From NCBI GenBank assembly GCA_026390815.1, contig JAPLFH010000010.1, positions 1-58,523 on the forward strand: 58,523 nucleotides of DNA, in the 5' to 3' direction. Shown piece by piece: positions 6,199 through 56,066 of this stretch. This DNA comes from Ignavibacteriales bacterium. GTDB taxonomy: Bacteria; Bacteroidota; Ignavibacteria; Ignavibacteriales; SURF-24. How positions within the stretch are numbered: position 1 is the first letter of the stretch; each line of letters begins with the position of its first letter. The position numbers were made by a program, and so were the translations under genes. A model generated the notes under the pieces. That model had not been told where the DNA came from and ran no database searches. It was given only the letters and a program-made list of their open reading frames with translations.

Positions 6199-6221
6199 CC
6201 TGCCTTGCCGCAGGCAGGCGC
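6199..6221 (+). repeat. Palindromic insertion after the catalytic Glu codon of orfB
   Basis: CCTGCCTTGCCGCAGGCAGG and three more bases separate the codons for NGKIE from those for YHRTVH, which normally follow after one residue in IS3 OrfB. The segment is self-complementary (CCTGCCTTGC against GCAGGCAGG, imperfect). A 23-base segment in place of one codon means a net gain of 20, close to the 19-nt insertion in orfA and the 20-nt one in the tRNA-Leu copy. Confidence 0.6.
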
Positions 6222-6293: not shown

Positions 6294-6308
6294 TCCGCCT
6301 TAGGCGGA
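6294..6308 (+). repeat. Second palindromic insertion in orfB
   Basis: TCCGCCTTAGGCGGA is a 15-base palindrome with a 3-base loop. It adds the residues SALGGA between DDARKQ and NYIEFYN, a stretch that is normally continuous in IS3 OrfB proteins. The frame is kept. The sequence differs from the CCTGCC/GGCAGG type but has the same size and form. Confidence 0.5.
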
Positions 6309-44332: not shown

Positions 44333-45622
44333 TTAAATTTCATTTGCTATTAATTCTGCTGCAATTCTCCCACTTTTTACCGCTCCTTCTATTGTGGAAG
44401 GAAGCCCGGTATTCGTCCAATCACCTGCCAGAAAAAGATTTTTAATTTTAGTATTAGCGTTTGGTCTTGAATTTAAAATAGCAGGTGAAGGAACGAATGT
44501 AGCTCGTTTTTCTTTAATTATTTTATAATTTGAAATTAGACTATTGTTGAAAAAAGCGAAATAGTTATGAATTTCTTCTACTACAACTTTATATATTTTT
44601 TCTGAGTTAAATTCTATCATTGCGCCAGCATCGCTTATTACAATTGTAATATGTTTTCCATGATTAAATATCCAGTGAACCTTTGAATCAATTAATCCAT
44701 AAAACTTTTCTTTAAATGGATTTTCATTTAGCCAAATATGAACTGTAAGAATTGGTGAATAATCAAATTTCAAATCGCTTAACAAATAATCAGAATCTAA
44801 AAACATTTTTTGGAAAGAGTGAAATGGAACGGCAGAAACTACAAAATCAAATCCATCAACAGGTTTATTATTTACAATAACAGATTTTACCTTTTCATTC
44901 CGTATTTCTATGTAAGAAACTCTGCTCGATAAATTTATTCCACCATTATGGTTGTTTAAAAAAGCACTTGCATTGTTGCAGTACATCTCACTTAAACCAG
45001 TTTTGGGTAATAGGATTGAAGCAGATTTGTTTCCCTTTAAAAACATTTTTTTAAGGATATCAATAAATATTTTTGCTGATGCTTTTTCCAGATTAGTATT
45101 AAGTGTACCAACAACTAAAATATCCCAGAATGCTTTTATTGTTCTGTCATTCTGATGATTATCATCCAGCAATTCTTTTACAGTTAGATTATTTAATGAT
45201 TCACTTGGAGTCCCCAGTAATTTCAAAAAAAATTTGATAATGTTTACTCTGTCAGTAAACTTAATTGCTTTATAAGATAATAAACCAGCAAGAAGGTTGA
45301 AGGGGTAGAACTTTGATTTTGATATTAGTGGAACAACACCAGAATACTTATCAACAAAATTTATTTCCAGCTTATCCTGATAATAAATATTATTTAATGC
45401 TCCAATCAATTTTAGAAAATGAATTGTTTCTTTATAACAGCCCATCAGGATGTGCTGCCCATTATCTATTACATCCCCAGTTATATCATCAAAGAAAGAA
45501 TATGCTCTACCGCCAAGTTTGGGTGATGCTTCAAAAAGTTCTACATTAATACCAACATTTGCCAAATGAACTGCCGCTGATAAGCCAGCAAATCCACCTC
45601 CGACAATAACAACTTTTTTCAT
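44333..45622 (-). CDS. hpnE: Hydroxysqualene dehydroxylase HpnE (FAD-dependent amine-oxidase-like)
   Basis: A 429-residue flavoprotein with an N-terminal dinucleotide fold KKVVIVGGGFAGLSAAVHLA, ELFEASPKLGGRAYSF, DNGQHILMGCY, and the C-terminal LFLAGDWTNTGLPSTIEGAV. This is the squalene-associated FAD-dependent desaturase type. It reduces hydroxysqualene to squalene in the third step after HpnD and HpnC. Its start overlaps the hpnD stop by 4 bases. A carotenoid desaturase would be similar, but the neighbours favour HpnE. Confidence 0.9.
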   Translation of the reverse strand: MKKVVIVGGGFAGLSAAVHLANVGINVELFEASPKLGGRAYSFFDDITGDVIDNGQHILMGCYKETIHFLKLIGALNNIYYQDKLEINFVDKYSGVVPLISKSKFYPFNLLAGLLSYKAIKFTDRVNIIKFFLKLLGTPSESLNNLTVKELLDDNHQNDRTIKAFWDILVVGTLNTNLEKASAKIFIDILKKMFLKGNKSASILLPKTGLSEMYCNNASAFLNNHNGGINLSSRVSYIEIRNEKVKSVIVNNKPVDGFDFVVSAVPFHSFQKMFLDSDYLLSDLKFDYSPILTVHIWLNENPFKEKFYGLIDSKVHWIFNHGKHITIVISDAGAMIEFNSEKIYKVVVEEIHNYFAFFNNSLISNYKIIKEKRATFVPSPAILNSRPNANTKIKNLFLAGDWTNTGLPSTIEGAVKSGRIAAELIANEI

Positions 45623-46464
45623 GAATAAACTAAACTATACTTTGCCCAAACTCCAAGGGATATTCCAACCTTTTCGAATTTTGATACTTTAATTTTCTTA
45701 TCGAATACGTTGAAATTTTTATCTTCAATTTTCTGAAGCAATTTAGAATAGATATGCTGCATAGCTCTTGCAGCAAACATAGCGGGTTTATCTTCAATTG
45801 TAAGGTAATGGTTTGCACGATCAAAAAAATCTTTAGCACGCAATGCTTCATAATTCATCAGAGCAACAAAATTGGCATTATAAACGCTCTTAAATAATTC
45901 GCTTTCCGTGTAGCTAAACTTATTCATATCTTCCTGCGGCAGATAAATTCTTCCATTCTGAGCATCAGATTTTACGTCTCGTAAAATATTTGTAAGCTGA
46001 AGAGCGTACCCAAGATTAACTGCAAAATCTTTCGTGGATTTATTTTTATATCCAAAAATTTCTATACACATTAAACCTACAGTTGAAGCCACGCGATAAC
46101 AATAGAGAAGAAGATCATCAAATTTAATATAACGTTTATTTTGGAGGTCCATCTCCATACCTTTGATAAGCTCAAAGAAAGGCTCTATTGGAATATTGAA
46201 TTGTTGGACAATTTTAATCAGTTTATTAAAAAGGAAAAATTCAGAATTACCGGATAATGATTTCTCCAGTTCAACTCTCCACCTTCGTAAACGTTCGTAC
46301 TTAATTTCTTCGGTTACATCTTCATCATCAACAATATCATCGGTCTGCCGGCAGAATGAGTAAACAGTATTCATTGCATCTCGTTTTGGAGCAGGTAATA
46401 AGCTGAAAGCATAATAAAAACTGCTTTTACTTTCTTTTGCAATATTTTTTGTGGAGTCTATCAA
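45619..46464 (-). CDS. hpnD: Presqualene diphosphate synthase HpnD
   Basis: A 281-residue trans-isoprenyl diphosphate synthase of the squalene/phytoene synthase family. The first aspartate motif is FCRQTDDIVDDED; SFYYAFSLLPAPKRDAM precedes it; the second is in NLGYALQLTNILRDVKSDAQ with GRIYLPQEDM. It condenses two farnesyl diphosphates to presqualene diphosphate. hpnC lies 1 base upstream and hpnE overlaps downstream, which is the conserved HpnCDE order. Confidence 0.92.
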   Translation of the reverse strand: MIDSTKNIAKESKSSFYYAFSLLPAPKRDAMNTVYSFCRQTDDIVDDEDVTEEIKYERLRRWRVELEKSLSGNSEFFLFNKLIKIVQQFNIPIEPFFELIKGMEMDLQNKRYIKFDDLLLYCYRVASTVGLMCIEIFGYKNKSTKDFAVNLGYALQLTNILRDVKSDAQNGRIYLPQEDMNKFSYTESELFKSVYNANFVALMNYEALRAKDFFDRANHYLTIEDKPAMFAARAMQHIYSKLLQKIEDKNFNVFDKKIKVSKFEKVGISLGVWAKYSLVYS

Positions 46465-46465
46465 T

Positions 46466-47320
46466 CTAAAATCTTTTTAATGAACTAATAAATATTTTCA
46501 TATAATCAAATTTAGTTAAAACTGGTCTAATGTTAAGTACATTGTAATCAAATTCTACAATTTTTTCCAGTATTTTTTCGCCCCCTAAAATTGTACATCC
46601 TATTTCATATTTCAATCTTTTAGGTAGGTAATGAATTAAAGAATACCCATCCGTAAAAAGATTGAGAATACGTTGAACTTGAAATTTAATTAACGCTATA
46701 AATTTCGAGTTACCTTCTCTTAAAACAAATTCCTTTTCAGTAATATAATAAGCTGCCAGTTCATCTTCCGGAATATATATCCTGCCCTTCTGATAATCTA
46801 TGCTTAAATCCTGTAAAAAATTTGTTAATTGCAGGGCAGTACATATTGAATCTGAATATCCGAATAATTTGTCGTTTCGAATATTAAAAAGTTCTAAAAT
46901 CAATCTTCCAACAGGATTTGCGGAATACTTACAATAATCGAGTACTTCCTGAAAATCTTTATAACGTTTTTTAGTTAAATCCTGTTTAAATGCCTTAATC
47001 AAATTTGTAAAATGAACCGGACTTAGCTTCATATCATTAATTGTTGCAGTTAAAGCTTTCCAAAATGGTAATGAAAATTTTCCTTTGAGAGCAAAATTAA
47101 ATTCCGATTCATATAAATTAAGTTTCGCCAGCCTATCATCTTCAGAAAAATTTCCTTCATCAGCAATGTCGTCTGCCTGGCGGGCAAATTTATAAATAAC
47201 TGCAATGTGTTTTCTTAAATTTTTGGGAACAAGAAATGAAATAACCGGGAAATTTTCATAATGAGTTGTGGCAAACCGAATGGCATTTTTATATTCCTCA
47301 TTGAGGATCTCATCATTCAT
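46466..47320 (-). CDS. hpnC: Hydroxysqualene synthase HpnC
   Basis: A 284-residue squalene/phytoene synthase family member. Motifs are HYENFPVISFLVPKNLRKHI, typical of HpnC, KFARQADDIADEGNF (first Asp motif) and ALQLTNFLQDLSIDYQKGRI (second). It converts presqualene diphosphate to hydroxysqualene. It is the first gene of hpnC-hpnD-hpnE. No squalene-hopene cyclase gene lies in the window, so the final product (hopanoid, squalene or other) is open. Confidence 0.9.
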   Translation of the reverse strand: MNDEILNEEYKNAIRFATTHYENFPVISFLVPKNLRKHIAVIYKFARQADDIADEGNFSEDDRLAKLNLYESEFNFALKGKFSLPFWKALTATINDMKLSPVHFTNLIKAFKQDLTKKRYKDFQEVLDYCKYSANPVGRLILELFNIRNDKLFGYSDSICTALQLTNFLQDLSIDYQKGRIYIPEDELAAYYITEKEFVLREGNSKFIALIKFQVQRILNLFTDGYSLIHYLPKRLKYEIGCTILGGEKILEKIVEFDYNVLNIRPVLTKFDYMKIFISSLKRF

Positions 47321-47413
47321 TTACATCTGCAGTAATTTTAAGAAGTATTCTATTTTAAGCTTACTCGTACAAAATTTAGAATTCAAAATCCAGCGTTATA
47401 AGTATTTTATTTG

Positions 47414-47497
47414 TGCCCGAAGGGGGACTCGAACCCCCACCCACGTACGTGGACTAGACCCTGAACCTAGCGCGTCTACCAATTCCGCTATTCGGGC
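47414..47497 (-). tRNA. tRNA-Leu (anticodon CAG)
   Basis: An 84-nt type II tRNA. The 5' GCCCGAA pairs with TTCGGGC; the D-arm has GCGGAATTGGTAGACGCGC, the anticodon stem CTAGG/TCTAG holds the loop TTCAGGG with anticodon CAG, a long variable arm (CCACGTACGTGG) follows, and the T-arm reads GGGGGTTCGAGTCCCCC. CCA is not encoded. Its 5' flank carries the stop codon of a GIY-YIG gene, and a second, broken copy of its 5' half lies 0.3 kb away. Confidence 0.96.
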
Positions 47498-47502
47498 AAT
47501 CA

Positions 47503-47739
47503 TTATTTAATGTTTTTTAAGAACTCTTTTCCAATTCCAGATTTGAAGTAAATTTCTCTTTTTCTTGCTTCAATTCTGGTTGAACATTTTTCTTTATAAA
47601 TTATAACAAATGGTCTGTATGGTTTTGTTGTTCTTTCATAACCATTATTATGTCTGTTAAGCCGTTCATCAAGATTGCTGGTTAAACCTACATAAATGTA
47701 ATTCCTAACTAAACTTTTTATTGCATATACTGTATACAT
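47503..47739 (-). CDS. GIY-YIG nuclease domain protein (tRNA-associated cassette)
   Basis: A 78-residue single-domain protein. It has YTVYAIKSLVRNYIYVGLT (GIY-YIG motif), the catalytic Arg in LDERLNRHNNG, TTKPYRPFVIIYKE, and a Glu in TRIEARKREIYFKSG. It resembles the small UPF0213-type GIY-YIG proteins frequent in Bacteroidetes. On the minus strand it starts directly after a 5' half of a tRNA-Leu copy and its stop codon lies 5 bases before the intact tRNA-Leu, within a repeat that is present at both ends. The layout suggests a mobile cassette at a tRNA gene. Nuclease activity and mobility are inferred. Confidence 0.85.
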   Translation of the reverse strand: MYTVYAIKSLVRNYIYVGLTSNLDERLNRHNNGYERTTKPYRPFVIIYKEKCSTRIEARKREIYFKSGIGKEFLKNIK

Positions 47740-47740
47740 A

Positions 47741-47794
47741 AACTTAGCGCGCCTGCCTGGCGGTAGACAAGTCTACCAATTCCGCCATTCGGGC
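47741..47794 (-). pseudogene. Partial tRNA-Leu copy (5' half) with 20-nt palindromic insertion
   Basis: Read on the minus strand from 47794, GCCCGAATGGCGGAATTGGTAGAC matches the tRNA-Leu at 47497 with one difference. A 20-nt insertion follows, then GCGCTA matches again before the sequence runs into the GIY-YIG start codon. The shared sequence also extends 12 bases into the 5' flank (CAATCATTATTT on the plus strand at both sites). There is no anticodon or T-arm, so it cannot make a tRNA. Confidence 0.85.
47752..47771 (-). repeat. 20-nt palindromic insertion in the tRNA-Leu fragment
   Basis: The plus strand reads CCTGCCTGGCGGTAGACAAG (one base of end ambiguity). It interrupts the D-loop sequence found intact in the neighbouring tRNA. 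Its CCTGCC start and CAAG end match the insertions in the IS3-like elements (CCTGCC...GGCAAG/GGCAGG), so it probably belongs to the same family of short palindromes. Confidence 0.55.
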
Positions 47795-47875
47795 AATCAT
47801 TATTTCAAATCTCGATTCAAATATAATTATTAGAATCCAGTGGTGCAATTTACTTTTATAATTGAAGAATAATTA

Positions 47876-48003
47876 CTACGTAACGTTACGCAAAAAATTA
47901 TAATTGTTATATTGATCGGAGCGAAATATCTCAAATCAGTTTAAAATCGAGGTGTTGAGATTCTTCACTCTGTTCAGAATGACAATTTTGCGTAATGTGA
48001 CTT
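47876..48003. repeat. MITE-like nested inverted repeat
   Basis: Outer imperfect inverted repeats are TACGTAACGTTACGCAAAAA (47876-47895) and, on the other side, AATTTTGCGTAATGTGACTT (47984-48003). Inside, GAGCGAAATATCTCAA pairs imperfectly with TTGAGATTCTTCACTC. The segment GAGATTCTTCACTCTGTTCA followed by GAATGACA resembles dispersed repeats seen in many Bacteroidetes genomes (from general familiarity). It is about 128 bp, non-coding, and abuts the mrcA stop codon. Confidence 0.55.
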
Positions 48004-48004
48004 A

Positions 48005-50209
48005 CTAATGTATATCGCATGGTGGTGGTAAATTATTTCTATTAATTATGTCAGATACTTTTTCCGGACAAGATTCTTTAGCTAATCTTGGTGAACCACG
48101 TTGAATGCTTTCTAAACAAAATTGCTCTGTTACTACATCATCGGTTAATTCAAAATACTTTAATGGCATTTTTACTTCATCATAAACTCCCTGCATAAAC
48201 TTTGCCCAAATTGGTGCAGCAGCTTTCGCTCCTTGCCCATACCATCCAGTAAAGCTAACTCTCCTGTCATCAAATCCTACCCAAACTCCGGCAACTAATT
48301 GTGGTGTAAATCCAATAAACCAGGCATCACCAAAATCCTGAGTTGTACCAGTCTTTCCAGCTGCTGGACGATGGAAAAATTGACGAACTCCTGCACCGGT
48401 TCCGTAATCTACAACAGTCTGCATCATATCTGTAACGATTGCAGCAGTAGTTGGAGAAATTGCTTCGTATATTTTATTCGGGTAGAATTTATCAATTAGA
48501 ATTCCGTCTCGGTCTTCAATTTTTAATATTGAAATGGGAGAAATGTAAATACCTTTGTTGGCAAGCGTAGCATAAGCTGACGTTAATTCAAGAGGAGAGA
48601 CCTCAGAAGTTCCAAGTGCTATTGAAGGAACAAGATTAAGACGACTGTTTATCCCCATCTTCTTTGCAATTTCACCAATCTTGCTAAGTGGTGCATAATC
48701 CTGGATGATTAATCTCGCTGTAATAATATTAAGGGAATTTTTCAAAGCATCTCTAAGCATAGTGTAACCACCGGTGCTGCCATCACTATTGGATGGAGAC
48801 CATCCGTTAAAATCAAATGGTTGATTTAAAACAGAAAATGCCGGGTAGAGTCCATTATCAATCGCTGTACTATAAATTATTGGTTTGAAAGATGAACCAG
48901 GCTGCCTTCGTATTCCTGTAACGTGATTAAGTCCATATTGAAAATTTTGATTCTGACCGCCAATCATTGCTTTAATATATCCGTTAGTCGGATCTATTGC
49001 TACAAAACCAACTTCAATTGTTTGCTCAGCAATCTTTACTGAATCAATAAACTTTGGATTGTATCGTAATCTCCTGTAAACTTCAGATTTATCCTCTTGG
49101 TTTTTTGCTGATAAATATCTTTGATCATTCCTTACAGCTTTTTCAACAATTGCATTAAGTATATCTCTGCGATTGTTCCAATTCCATGCTTTGTTAAATA
49201 ATATTTGATATTCCTTTAAATGATTTGCAGCTACTTTGTTAGCAACCTGCTGCATTCGAGAATCGATAGTAGTGTAGATATTCAAACCATCTCTGTATAA
49301 ATCGTATCCATATTTATCAGACATTTTTTCCATTTGTTGACGGACATATTCCATAAAGTGAGGAGCAATTGTTGCATAACCACCAATGCGTTCGCTGCCT
49401 AATTCAATCGGTTTACTCCTTAAACGTTCATACAAGTTCTCTTCCATGTAACCAGCAACAACCATATTGTGCATTACAAGATTTCTCCGCTCTAAAGCAT
49501 TCTCATATTTATTTACAGGATCGTAGTTAACTGATGATTTTAGTAAAGCCACCAACAAGGCGGATTCTGGTATTGTAAGATCTTTAGCGTTTTTATGAAA
49601 GAAAATATGAGAAGCTGTTTCTACACCAAAGGCACTTCTACCAAAGTAAGATACATTAAGATACATTTCTAAAATTTCTTTCTTTGTATATGTTTTTTCT
49701 ATTTGAATAGCAGTAACCCATTCACGCAATTTTCTAACAAATGTATCAAATGAGTTTTCATTTTTTATTTTAAGATTGTAAAGATTTTTTGCAAGCTGCT
49801 GTGTTATTGTGCTAGCGCCTTCGTGCAAAGATAAACTGAAAACATTTTTAACCATTGCTTTAAAAAACCTTGCAACATCAACACCCCAATGATCATAAAA
49901 ATTTCTATCCTCAGTGGCAATCAAAGCGTTTATTAAATGATTAGGTATGCTATCCACACGAGCTTCTATACGATTTTCAATGAAGAATTGTCCAATCAGT
50001 TCTCCATCAACTGAATAAACTTTGCTTGCAAGAACCGGTTTTGGATTTTCGAGCTGCTCTAAAGATGGTAACCCCTGAAAAATGTAGGCACCAAAGAAAA
50101 TAAGAATTATAACTATTGAAATAGCAACCGTTAAAATTATTTTTCTTTTTTTATCATCGCGATTGATTGACTTTTTCCAATTATCCGATGGAGAAAACAT
50201 TTTACTCAT
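48005..50209 (-). CDS. mrcA: Penicillin-binding protein 1A (bifunctional glycosyltransferase/transpeptidase)
   Basis: A 734-residue class A PBP. The start at 50209 (MSKMFSPSDNWKK) is preferred because it falls 1 base after the upstream stop and before a basic stretch and membrane helix (KRKIILTVAISIVIILIFFG). The glycosyltransferase domain shows ATEDRNFYDHWGVD and EGASTITQQLAKNLY; the transpeptidase domain shows PGSSFKP, SLN in KNSLNIITARL, and GKTGTTQDFGDAWFIGF. It polymerises and cross-links peptidoglycan in the periplasm. It lies downstream of lpxH and the M1 peptidase. Confidence 0.95.
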   Translation of the reverse strand: MSKMFSPSDNWKKSINRDDKKRKIILTVAISIVIILIFFGAYIFQGLPSLEQLENPKPVLASKVYSVDGELIGQFFIENRIEARVDSIPNHLINALIATEDRNFYDHWGVDVARFFKAMVKNVFSLSLHEGASTITQQLAKNLYNLKIKNENSFDTFVRKLREWVTAIQIEKTYTKKEILEMYLNVSYFGRSAFGVETASHIFFHKNAKDLTIPESALLVALLKSSVNYDPVNKYENALERRNLVMHNMVVAGYMEENLYERLRSKPIELGSERIGGYATIAPHFMEYVRQQMEKMSDKYGYDLYRDGLNIYTTIDSRMQQVANKVAANHLKEYQILFNKAWNWNNRRDILNAIVEKAVRNDQRYLSAKNQEDKSEVYRRLRYNPKFIDSVKIAEQTIEVGFVAIDPTNGYIKAMIGGQNQNFQYGLNHVTGIRRQPGSSFKPIIYSTAIDNGLYPAFSVLNQPFDFNGWSPSNSDGSTGGYTMLRDALKNSLNIITARLIIQDYAPLSKIGEIAKKMGINSRLNLVPSIALGTSEVSPLELTSAYATLANKGIYISPISILKIEDRDGILIDKFYPNKIYEAISPTTAAIVTDMMQTVVDYGTGAGVRQFFHRPAAGKTGTTQDFGDAWFIGFTPQLVAGVWVGFDDRRVSFTGWYGQGAKAAAPIWAKFMQGVYDEVKMPLKYFELTDDVVTEQFCLESIQRGSPRLAKESCPEKVSDIINRNNLPPPCDIH

Positions 50210-54227: not shown

Positions 54228-56066
54228 ATGAAAGAAGATTTTAAATCAAAATTAGAAACGCTACCTAATAAACCAGGTATTTACCAGTTCCTAAATGATA
54301 AAGGAAAGGTAATTTATGTTGGCAAGGCTAAAAGTTTGAAAAGCAGGGTAAAATCATATTTCCAAAATTCAGTTCTCTCTCCAAAAACAAAAGCTCTTGT
54401 TGATAAGATTTATGATCTTCAAATGATTATTACAGATACTGAAATAGAAGCGCTTGTACTAGAAAATAACCTGATCAAACAATTCACACCTCGTTATAAC
54501 ATTAACTTAAAGGATGATAAATCTTTCCCATATATTGTAGTAACTAACGAACCTTATCCGAGAATTTTTCCTACAAGAAACATAGTTAAGGATGGTTCAA
54601 AATATTTCGGTCCTTATACAGAAGTTAAAGCAATGAAATATTCTTTAAGGATGATAAACGATATTTTCAAAATAAGAAACTGCAATTATTATATTGATCA
54701 GGAAGTAATTGATAAAAAGAAAATTAAAGTATGTCTTGAGTATCATATAAAAAAATGCGATGGACCTTGCGAAGGATTGATTTCTCAAATATCATATAAC
54801 GAAATGGTGAATGAAGTTACTAAAGTGTTAAGCGGAAAGTTTAATGACTTACTTAAAGATCTGAATGAGAAAATGCAAAAAGCTTCTTCAGAATTTAATT
54901 TTGAAGAAGCAGCGCAAATTCGGGATAAAATTGAGCAGCTTAAAATATATTCATCAAAGCAAAAAATGGTTACAACCGACTTTGTTGAACGTGACATTAT
55001 CACAGTTGCATATGAAGGAAAAGAGGCTACTTGCTCTATTCTAAATATTCGAGATGGTAAAATAGTTGGTAAAAAACAATTGAAATTAGGTCTTGAAGGA
55101 CAAGAAGAAATAACTGAGGTATATTCTGCTGCAATTAAATTTTATTATAATGAATTGGTTGAAGTACCAAAAGAAATTGTTGTTGAAGTAGAACCGGATG
55201 AAATGGAAACTCTTACAGAATGGTTAAATACAATATCAACGAGAAGTATAAAATTTACAATCCCTAAAAATAGTGGAGAATTGAAATCGCTTGTAAATAT
55301 GTGCAAGCAAAATGCAATTCTTCAGTTAAAGGAAATTCAATTACAAAGAATGAAACGGGATGGAAATTTGCCATTTGTTTTGGAGGCACTTAAAAGAGAT
55401 TTACATCTTCCTGCCCTTCCAAGAAAAATTGAATGCTTTGATATTTCTAACTTACAAGGAACAGATACCGTTGCCAGTATGGTGGTTTTTGAAAATGGAA
55501 AACCGAAAAAGAGCCAGTACCGAAAATATATTATTAAAAATGCGGAAGGTCCTGATGATTTTGAAAGTATGCGAGAAGTAATTACAAGAAGATACTCAAA
55601 ATTAAAAGAAACAAATGAACCTCTGCCTGATTTAATTATGGTTGATGGTGGTAAAGGACAACTTTCCAGTGCAGTTGGAATTCTGAACAGTTTTGGTTAT
55701 TCAAATTATAATATTATTGGTTTAGCAAAACGTCTGGAAGAAGTGTTTCACCCTGGTATATCAGAAGCTCAATCAATTCCCAAGACTTCATCAAGTTTAA
55801 AATTACTCCAACAAGTACGAGATGAAGCTCACAGATTTGCAATCACATTCCATCGATCAAGAAGAGATAAACGAACTTTAACTACTGAACTGCTTGAAAT
55901 AAAAGGGATCGGGAATAACACTGCGGAAAAATTGCTTAAAATATTTGGCAGTTTAAGTATTATTAAAAAAATATCATTTGAAGAATTGCAGAAAGCTGTG
56001 GGTAATTCTAAAGCTAACTTGCTGATTAATTATTTTCAAAAGGTTGATGAGGCTACCAATAACTAA
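54228..56066 (+). CDS. uvrC: Excinuclease ABC subunit C
   Basis: A 612-residue nucleotide-excision-repair nuclease. The N-terminal GIY-YIG domain is KPGIYQFLNDKGKVIYVGKA; CLEYHIKKCDGPCEG holds the cysteine cluster; the UVR motif (FEEAAQIRDKIEQLK) binds UvrB; the RNase H-like endonuclease has CFDISNLQGTDTVASMVVF and IMVDGGKGQLSSA; the C-terminal helix-hairpin-helix is LEIKGIGNNTAEKLLKIFG. The start at 54228 is used because the longer frame begins inside the glgC terminator. Confidence 0.96.
   Translation: MKEDFKSKLETLPNKPGIYQFLNDKGKVIYVGKAKSLKSRVKSYFQNSVLSPKTKALVDKIYDLQMIITDTEIEALVLENNLIKQFTPRYNINLKDDKSFPYIVVTNEPYPRIFPTRNIVKDGSKYFGPYTEVKAMKYSLRMINDIFKIRNCNYYIDQEVIDKKKIKVCLEYHIKKCDGPCEGLISQISYNEMVNEVTKVLSGKFNDLLKDLNEKMQKASSEFNFEEAAQIRDKIEQLKIYSSKQKMVTTDFVERDIITVAYEGKEATCSILNIRDGKIVGKKQLKLGLEGQEEITEVYSAAIKFYYNELVEVPKEIVVEVEPDEMETLTEWLNTISTRSIKFTIPKNSGELKSLVNMCKQNAILQLKEIQLQRMKRDGNLPFVLEALKRDLHLPALPRKIECFDISNLQGTDTVASMVVFENGKPKKSQYRKYIIKNAEGPDDFESMREVITRRYSKLKETNEPLPDLIMVDGGKGQLSSAVGILNSFGYSNYNIIGLAKRLEEVFHPGISEAQSIPKTSSSLKLLQQVRDEAHRFAITFHRSRRDKRTLTTELLEIKGIGNNTAEKLLKIFGSLSIIKKISFEELQKAVGNSKANLLINYFQKVDEATNN

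Follow-up and report, generated by a model that had tools for sequence, protein, structure and literature searches.

The window analysed here, a 58,523-nucleotide stretch of an Ignavibacteriales genome, contains on its minus strand a compact cassette in which a small GIY-YIG nuclease gene lies between a broken and an intact copy of tRNA-Leu (47413-47806(-)). Read along that strand, an 11-nt flank (AAATAATGATT, 47795-47805), which is native upstream sequence and the outer copy of a direct repeat, is followed by nt 1-23 of a tRNA-Leu (GCCCGAATGGCGGAATTGGTAGA, 47772-47794) that match the intact tRNA at 22 of 23 positions and are probably the displaced native half. A 20-nt palindrome of the CCTG-hairpin family (CTTGTCTACCGCCAGGCAGG, 47752-47771) then interrupts the D-loop as a clean insertion in the tRNA alignment, and in the same alignment the broken tRNA continues for 11 nt (CGCGCTAAGTT, 47741-47751) up to the start of the nuclease gene. 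This gene (47503-47739; ATG at 47739, TAA at 47505-47503) encodes a single-domain protein of 78 aa matching PF01541, and it is free-standing, outside any host gene. Its stop codon falls within the inner copy of the flank (AAATAATGATT, 47498-47508), identical to the outer copy, after which comes an intact tRNA-Leu(CAG) (47413-47497; ARAGORN; Rfam tRNA, 53 bits) whose 5′ part would be element-borne. A previous sequence-only reading of the window had placed the half tRNA-Leu, the GIY-YIG gene, the flanks and the intact tRNA-Leu correctly to the base. It had given the repeated flank as 12 nt, of which 11 are identical (12 with one mismatch), and it had recognised the 5′ half as broken but overlooked the palindrome in the D-loop; such hairpins proved to be general.

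Around the insert, the two window copies of flank plus tRNA are identical at 43 of 45 aligned bases, and their alignment scores 34.6 whereas the best of 500 shuffles scored 11.5, which rules out a chance origin of the repeat. The unit is 297-298 bp long and has one ORF. An Rfam scan of 47300-48020 returned the tRNA alone, plus one sub-threshold chance match. A group I intron was rejected, as no intron family was found in this region and the tRNA is duplicated, not interrupted.

The window ORF matched the GIY-YIG profile PF01541 with E=3e-16. An AlphaFold2 model of the nuclease predicted one compact domain (mean pLDDT 95) with a confident GIY-YIG fold, the nearest folds being UPF0213, SLX1, I-TevI and the UvrC N domain; among PDB structures the nearest were UPF0213 (1zg2, 1ywl; E about 1e-13) and SLX1, with the I-TevI catalytic domain a weaker match. 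The GIY-YIG residues Y5, Y16, G18, R26, H30 and E62 are conserved. The PF01541 domain, the fold and the catalytic residues (GIY Tyr, YIG Tyr, Arg and Glu) place the window protein in the GIY-YIG nuclease superfamily. UPF0213/YhbQ-type GIY-YIG proteins, its closest solved relatives, have the same single-domain size, and we know of no association with tRNA genes and no tRNA half in that family. As regards a relation to the phage endonuclease SegB, the only profile similarity was a weak match to the PHROG 314 homing endonuclease (E=2e-4). No relatives of the protein were found in the viral, phage and plasmid collections searched, and no carriers of the element among the phage, plasmid or viral contig records searched. 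Tandem nuclease copies vary chiefly at synonymous sites (pN/pS 0.13 over 26 pairs), and this purifying selection, together with the conserved GIY-YIG residues, indicates that the nuclease is being used.

Distribution, layout and isotype preference of the family

The source genome has four small GIY-YIG genes, and 4/4 abut a tRNA or tmRNA gene together with a broken copy of it: the window gene lies beside tRNA-Leu, and the other three beside the tmRNA 3′ end (L002), tRNA-Pro (L003) and tRNA-Gly (L004). tmRNA is also targeted, L002 (1121-1806) consisting of an intact tmRNA, the GIY-YIG gene and a tmRNA 3′ end with a T-loop hairpin. Linkage to tRNA as a general trait of GIY-YIG genes was rejected because none of the other three GIY-YIG genes of this genome has a tRNA within 1.5 kb. 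One of these three, the second GIY-YIG domain in the window (54273-54500(+)), belongs to a UvrC-like open frame of 630 aa and served as a control.

With a search profile built from the four source-genome genes, the family was found in 52 of 59 relatives, in up to 18 copies each, and across the host phylum in 175 of 296 sampled genomes (about 59%) and 97 of 140 genera at E≤1e-12. The named scan also reached Flavobacteriia, Cytophagia, Saprospiria, Balneola, Ignavibacteriae and Chlorobiota, and further Patescibacteria, Saganbacteria and Thermodesulfovibrionales. A tRNA was present at 70 of the 80 named loci, always on the same strand and mostly tRNA-Leu like the query, and at 19 of 20 loci from other orders or classes. 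The sequence-only reading had asked if such genes occur at many sites without tRNA fragments, and these counts speak clearly against that. Tandem arrays were common among the relatives, with periods of about 300-450 bp, many of the genomes being draft assemblies in which arrays may be collapsed or broken. Arrays of 3-5 units hold the nuclease and half tRNAs, not intact tRNAs.

The layout was counted over 148 loci lying within 450 bp of a tRNA, related loci included. Two mirror forms were observed: in type A an intact tRNA is followed by the GIY-YIG gene and a broken 3′ part, and in type B, the form of the window, a broken 5′ part is followed by the gene and an intact tRNA. A broken outer half was found on the far side of the gene in 131 of the 148 loci (A, 82/91; B, 49/57). 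The 5′-half layout described earlier from the window thus holds for the B loci but is only one of two, insertion on the 3′ side being seen in the A loci. Broken copies start at tRNA nt 1 in 47 of 49 B cases and extend to the tRNA 3′ end in 67 of 82 A cases; their inner end points vary and share no common core. A partial tRNA copy was detected in 82 of 87 loci at a cut-off of 13 (maximum of the shuffled-tRNA controls, 11.5), and the nearest tRNA, where close, was on the same strand as the nuclease gene in every locus. The repeat often extends into the outside flank: of 12 nt of outer flank, 8.4 match in A loci and 7.0 in B loci, compared with 4.0 and 4.4 for shuffled pairings, some of the loci being arrays. 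In some loci, such as L227, the flanks differ, which suggests that the incoming half may have come from elsewhere.

Hairpin-broken tRNA parts without a nuclease gene were seen at L242 (between tRNA-Leu and tRNA-Val), L230, L081 (upstream) and L085 (downstream) and are relics of lost or decayed elements. The converse worry of the sequence-only reading, that most relatives might have the tRNA half without the gene, did not materialise, as only occasional relics such as L230 were found.

The tRNA isotype follows the nuclease phylogeny. In a tree of 140 proteins, based on only 76 columns and including neighbouring genomes that are not independent, we counted 26 isotype changes compared with at least 77 in 1000 shuffles; after removal of the query-biased Leu set there were 15, with at least 45 when shuffled. 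Uniform clades were found for Cys (8/8), Met (4/4), Asn (6/6 and 3/3) and Lys (3/3); Asp, Pro, Ser, Arg and Leu formed further groups. When the nearest relatives of the window protein were picked from many genera regardless of tRNA, nearly all lay at tRNA-Leu genes, with several anticodons. The lone Lys entry in the Leu clade (L167, from Patescibacteria) is flanked on the opposite side by a tRNA-Leu, beyond which lies a hairpin-broken tRNA-Leu, so that it fits the clade. The best explanation for these patterns in the sequences is that nuclease clades are adapted to a single tRNA isotype each, which for the window clade would be tRNA-Leu.

Hairpins in the broken tRNA copies

An insert 9 nt or longer, in most cases a GC-rich hairpin, was present in 45/49 B and 56/82 A broken copies. 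Of the first 75 distinct inserts to be classified, the T-loop held 28 (many of them placed precisely at the junction of GGTTC with GA), the D-loop 22 and the anticodon loop 8. Tested as an exact boundary of element insertion, the hairpins were seen to occupy several points of the same tRNA. The CCTG hairpin (CCTGYCTRCCGRCAGGYAG) was found in 39 of 54 Leu/Arg-clade elements and in 1 of 47 others, and at tRNA-Ser genes in all three Leu/Arg-clade elements and in none of 19 from other clades. Hairpin family tracks the nuclease clade, not the tRNA or the genome. Variants of the 20-mer keep the stem by paired changes, with 8 cells changed on both sides (0/500 shuffles).

The hairpins, as distinct from the nuclease unit, might be REP-like palindromes in their own right, which insert into DNA of tRNA shape and persist just in broken copies. 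Such an origin agrees with the dispersal of the CCTG palindrome in 31 of 59 genomes, also away from tRNAs and with 0 control hits, and with the REP-type Y1 transposase genes of the source genome. It is harder to reconcile with the dependence of hairpin family on nuclease clade, with the lack of any CCTG hairpin near the four best Y1 transposase genes, and with the larger number of dispersed copies in genomes that have a Leu-clade nuclease (p=9e-5, kinship ignored), and we regard it as doubtful. The likeness to REP palindromes and their RAYT transposases is that of short palindromes whose family tracks the nuclease clade; REP/RAYT systems use a Y1 HUH transposase, whereas here the enzyme is a GIY-YIG nuclease and the palindromes lie inside tRNA halves beside its gene. 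A REPtron (REP/RAYT) was rejected for the cassette itself, as the unit holds the GIY-YIG ORF alone and the Y1 genes are elsewhere, without the CCTG palindrome.

Only tentatively, nuclease and cognate hairpin may form a pair and represent a new class of bacterial selfish element. The nuclease would open the tRNA gene of its isotype, the carried half would repair it, and the nuclease-specific hairpin would be placed in the displaced half, and elsewhere in the genome, as the element's own mark or immunity sequence.

Solo Y1 (REP-type) transposase genes occur in the source genome at L301-L304, two of them flanked by palindromes of other families. The window contains two GC-rich palindromes near each other, at 6199-6218 (CCTGCCTTGCCGCAGGCAGG) and 6294-6308 (TCCGCCTTAGGCGGA), the first of which belongs to the tRNA-hairpin family. 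In genome G024 the CCTG palindrome forms regular arrays (G024:C1:3445500-3446348, mostly with 170-bp spacing, and 660835-661095, with 121-bp spacing).

Empty sites and a proposed homing mechanism

Evidence from empty sites comes from homologous elements at a locus other than the window's own tRNA-Leu site, with the gene order tRNA-Met - tRNA-Leu(TAA) - tRNA-Val - thrS. In the filled site of genome G041, the native flank (...tttgcaccgcgttttt) is followed by a broken Leu 5′ half with CCTGCCTACCGGCAGGCAGG, the GIY-YIG gene and an intact tRNA-Leu. In genomes G075, G032 and G025 (89-91% identical), the flank is fused directly to an intact tRNA-Leu. Genome G055 lacks the nuclease gene but retains the broken half with its hairpin, and this is a relic. 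At the tRNA-Met of G032, which has an A-type element, the native downstream terminator is located after the broken 3′ half and a different terminator follows the intact tRNA-Met, so the 3′ half and terminator beside the gene came with the element. This pattern of terminators and flanks identifies the broken copy as the displaced native half, and it is the carried half that repairs the gene. The earlier proposal of a carried 5′ half was therefore right about the layout but not about the broken copy, which is the half that was displaced. Close relatives at 89-91% identity thus differ in the presence of the element at the same site, for both tRNA-Leu and tRNA-Met, and the empty sites that the sequence-only reading had suggested looking for do exist. 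The filled and empty sites would fit gain of the element as well as its clean loss by recombination between the repeats. At the window locus, synteny was followed through the neighbouring squalene/phytoene synthase gene, and no tRNA-Leu was present there in four family genomes.

We infer from these observations, with a probability of about 0.68, that the cassette is a selfish element of roughly 300 bp consisting of a minimal free-standing GIY-YIG homing nuclease and a tRNA half, with one isotype per nuclease clade. The nuclease would cut the tRNA gene of its own isotype in element-free DNA, and repair off an element-bearing copy would paste in the nuclease gene and a fresh tRNA half. The fresh half and the resident other half would then make up a working tRNA, and the displaced resident half would be left outside as a broken copy. 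The clade-typical hairpin in that copy would disrupt either the target of the nuclease or the folding of the tRNA, and so prevent renewed cutting or processing; in our view, the displaced half is thereby no longer recognised, whether as a target or as a tRNA. Placed on the same strand, the nuclease gene could be read from the tRNA promoter. Unequal recombination between the repeats would produce the tandem arrays and could also excise the element cleanly. Layout and empty sites support membership among homing-endonuclease elements, as judged from sequence comparison; for cutting of the element-free allele, the match of clade and isotype is indirect evidence. The sequence-only reading had put forward an element that enters a tRNA gene and restores it by means of a half that it carries, and this is supported by the empty sites, by the layout in 131/148 loci and by the match of clade and isotype. 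The cut, which that reading had tentatively placed at the D-arm, might lie there or elsewhere in the tRNA gene.

Several observations count against homing. The nuclease has no DNA-binding domain beyond its 78-aa core, unlike I-TevI or SegB, the latter being a larger protein; the variable inner ends of the broken copies leave no single cut site evident; and the regenerated tRNA still holds the presumed nuclease target, so that cutting of the host genome itself would be expected. The lack of carriers among the phage, plasmid and viral contig records searched points to no route of spread.

It is improbable, in our view, that the GIY-YIG protein instead acts on RNA, as a tRNA-directed nuclease or toxin with the hairpin half-tRNA as decoy, antitoxin or guide, the locus being an addiction module that resembles toxin-antitoxin systems and copies parts of tRNAs. 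The match of nuclease clade to tRNA isotype, the coupling of hairpin family to clade, the hairpin pairing kept through paired changes and the common strand of gene and tRNA would all suit such a module. By contrast, the GIY-YIG relatives whose function is known act on DNA as nucleases; the tandem arrays, and the empty sites with their displaced native halves, are in keeping with DNA breaks; and the hairpin is missing from some broken copies (26/82 of the 3′ type are without an insert of at least 9 nt).

The units might also be kept by the host, for instance as amplifiers of tRNA dosage or to make good the loss of tRNAs to defence systems that cut them, which is the use that phage T6 makes of SegB (PMC13096335). 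Tandem amplification, strong purifying selection and the SegB precedent would be expected in that case, but the arrays multiply nuclease and broken halves, not intact tRNAs, and presence among close relatives is patchy, which makes this very unlikely. We give as little credence to the nuclease gene being a passenger placed by another recombinase (a tyrosine integrase or a transposase) in the manner of islands that use tRNA att sites. Tyrosine-integrase genomic islands integrate at tRNA or tmRNA genes, restore them and leave a partial copy; the tRNA restored by element sequence, the displaced half and the tmRNA of L002, a classic island site, resemble them. The elements described here differ from such islands in size (about 300 bp), in entering on both the 5′ and 3′ sides and in repeat inner ends that vary without a common core, and isotype tracks the nuclease clade. 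An island proper was rejected because the 297-298 bp unit has one ORF and no integrase gene, and its variable inner ends leave no fixed-size att core.

With the homing element as the preferred reading, the closest known systems are a phage endonuclease and fungal mitochondrial mobile ORFs. SegB, found in T-even phages such as T6, is a free-standing GIY-YIG homing endonuclease near tRNA genes (PMC13096335, citing Brok-Volchanskaya 2008). It cuts inside tRNA genes with the preferred motif RAWTSGAAC, complement GTTCSAWTY, and amplifies tRNA-segB units in tandem (PMC13096335); to the eye, the complement reads like a tRNA T-loop. A GIY-YIG nuclease beside tRNA genes and tandem amplification are common to both systems, whereas the arrays here contain half tRNAs and the elements are chromosomal. 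For SegB, neither a carried tRNA half that rebuilds the target nor hairpin-broken copies have been described, and no isotype preference is reported; the elements here have both features, as well as isotype-specific clades. In the fungal mobile ORFs (Allomyces atp6; Glomus atp6, atp9, cox2 and nad3), the endonuclease carries a gene end that replaces the host's own, and the native end is displaced downstream; the Glomus atp9 endonuclease is of the GIY-YIG type (PMC3630166). Those are single cases in mitochondrial protein genes, whereas here either end of bacterial chromosomal tRNA genes is used, with isotype-specific clades, hairpins and tandem arrays in addition and a presence in about 59% of sampled phylum genomes. 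In bacterial chromosomes, the elements unite SegB and mobile-ORF behaviours; their nuclease is smaller, its clades are isotype-specific and the hairpins are specific to the nuclease. We found no prior description of such elements in the open-access literature, the scope of our search; a report in subscription papers or preprints is possible.

If the homing reading is true, the elements would rank among the smallest self-contained mobile elements known, and their nucleases, small and already sorted by tRNA isotype, would form a ready-made set. Many small genes annotated as 'GIY-YIG nuclease family protein' are explained by them, as are broken tRNA copies and tandem repeats and perhaps, beside tRNA genes, breaks in assemblies. 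Questions that they open to experiment are the recognition of one tRNA gene by a nuclease of just 78 aa, the harmless entry of a selfish element into an essential gene and the role of a hairpin in a tRNA loop.

Directly downstream of the window's tRNA-Leu (44333-47320(-)) lie a pair of squalene/phytoene-synthase-like genes and, after them, an FAD-dependent desaturase-like gene, which together resemble a hopanoid/squalene gene set.
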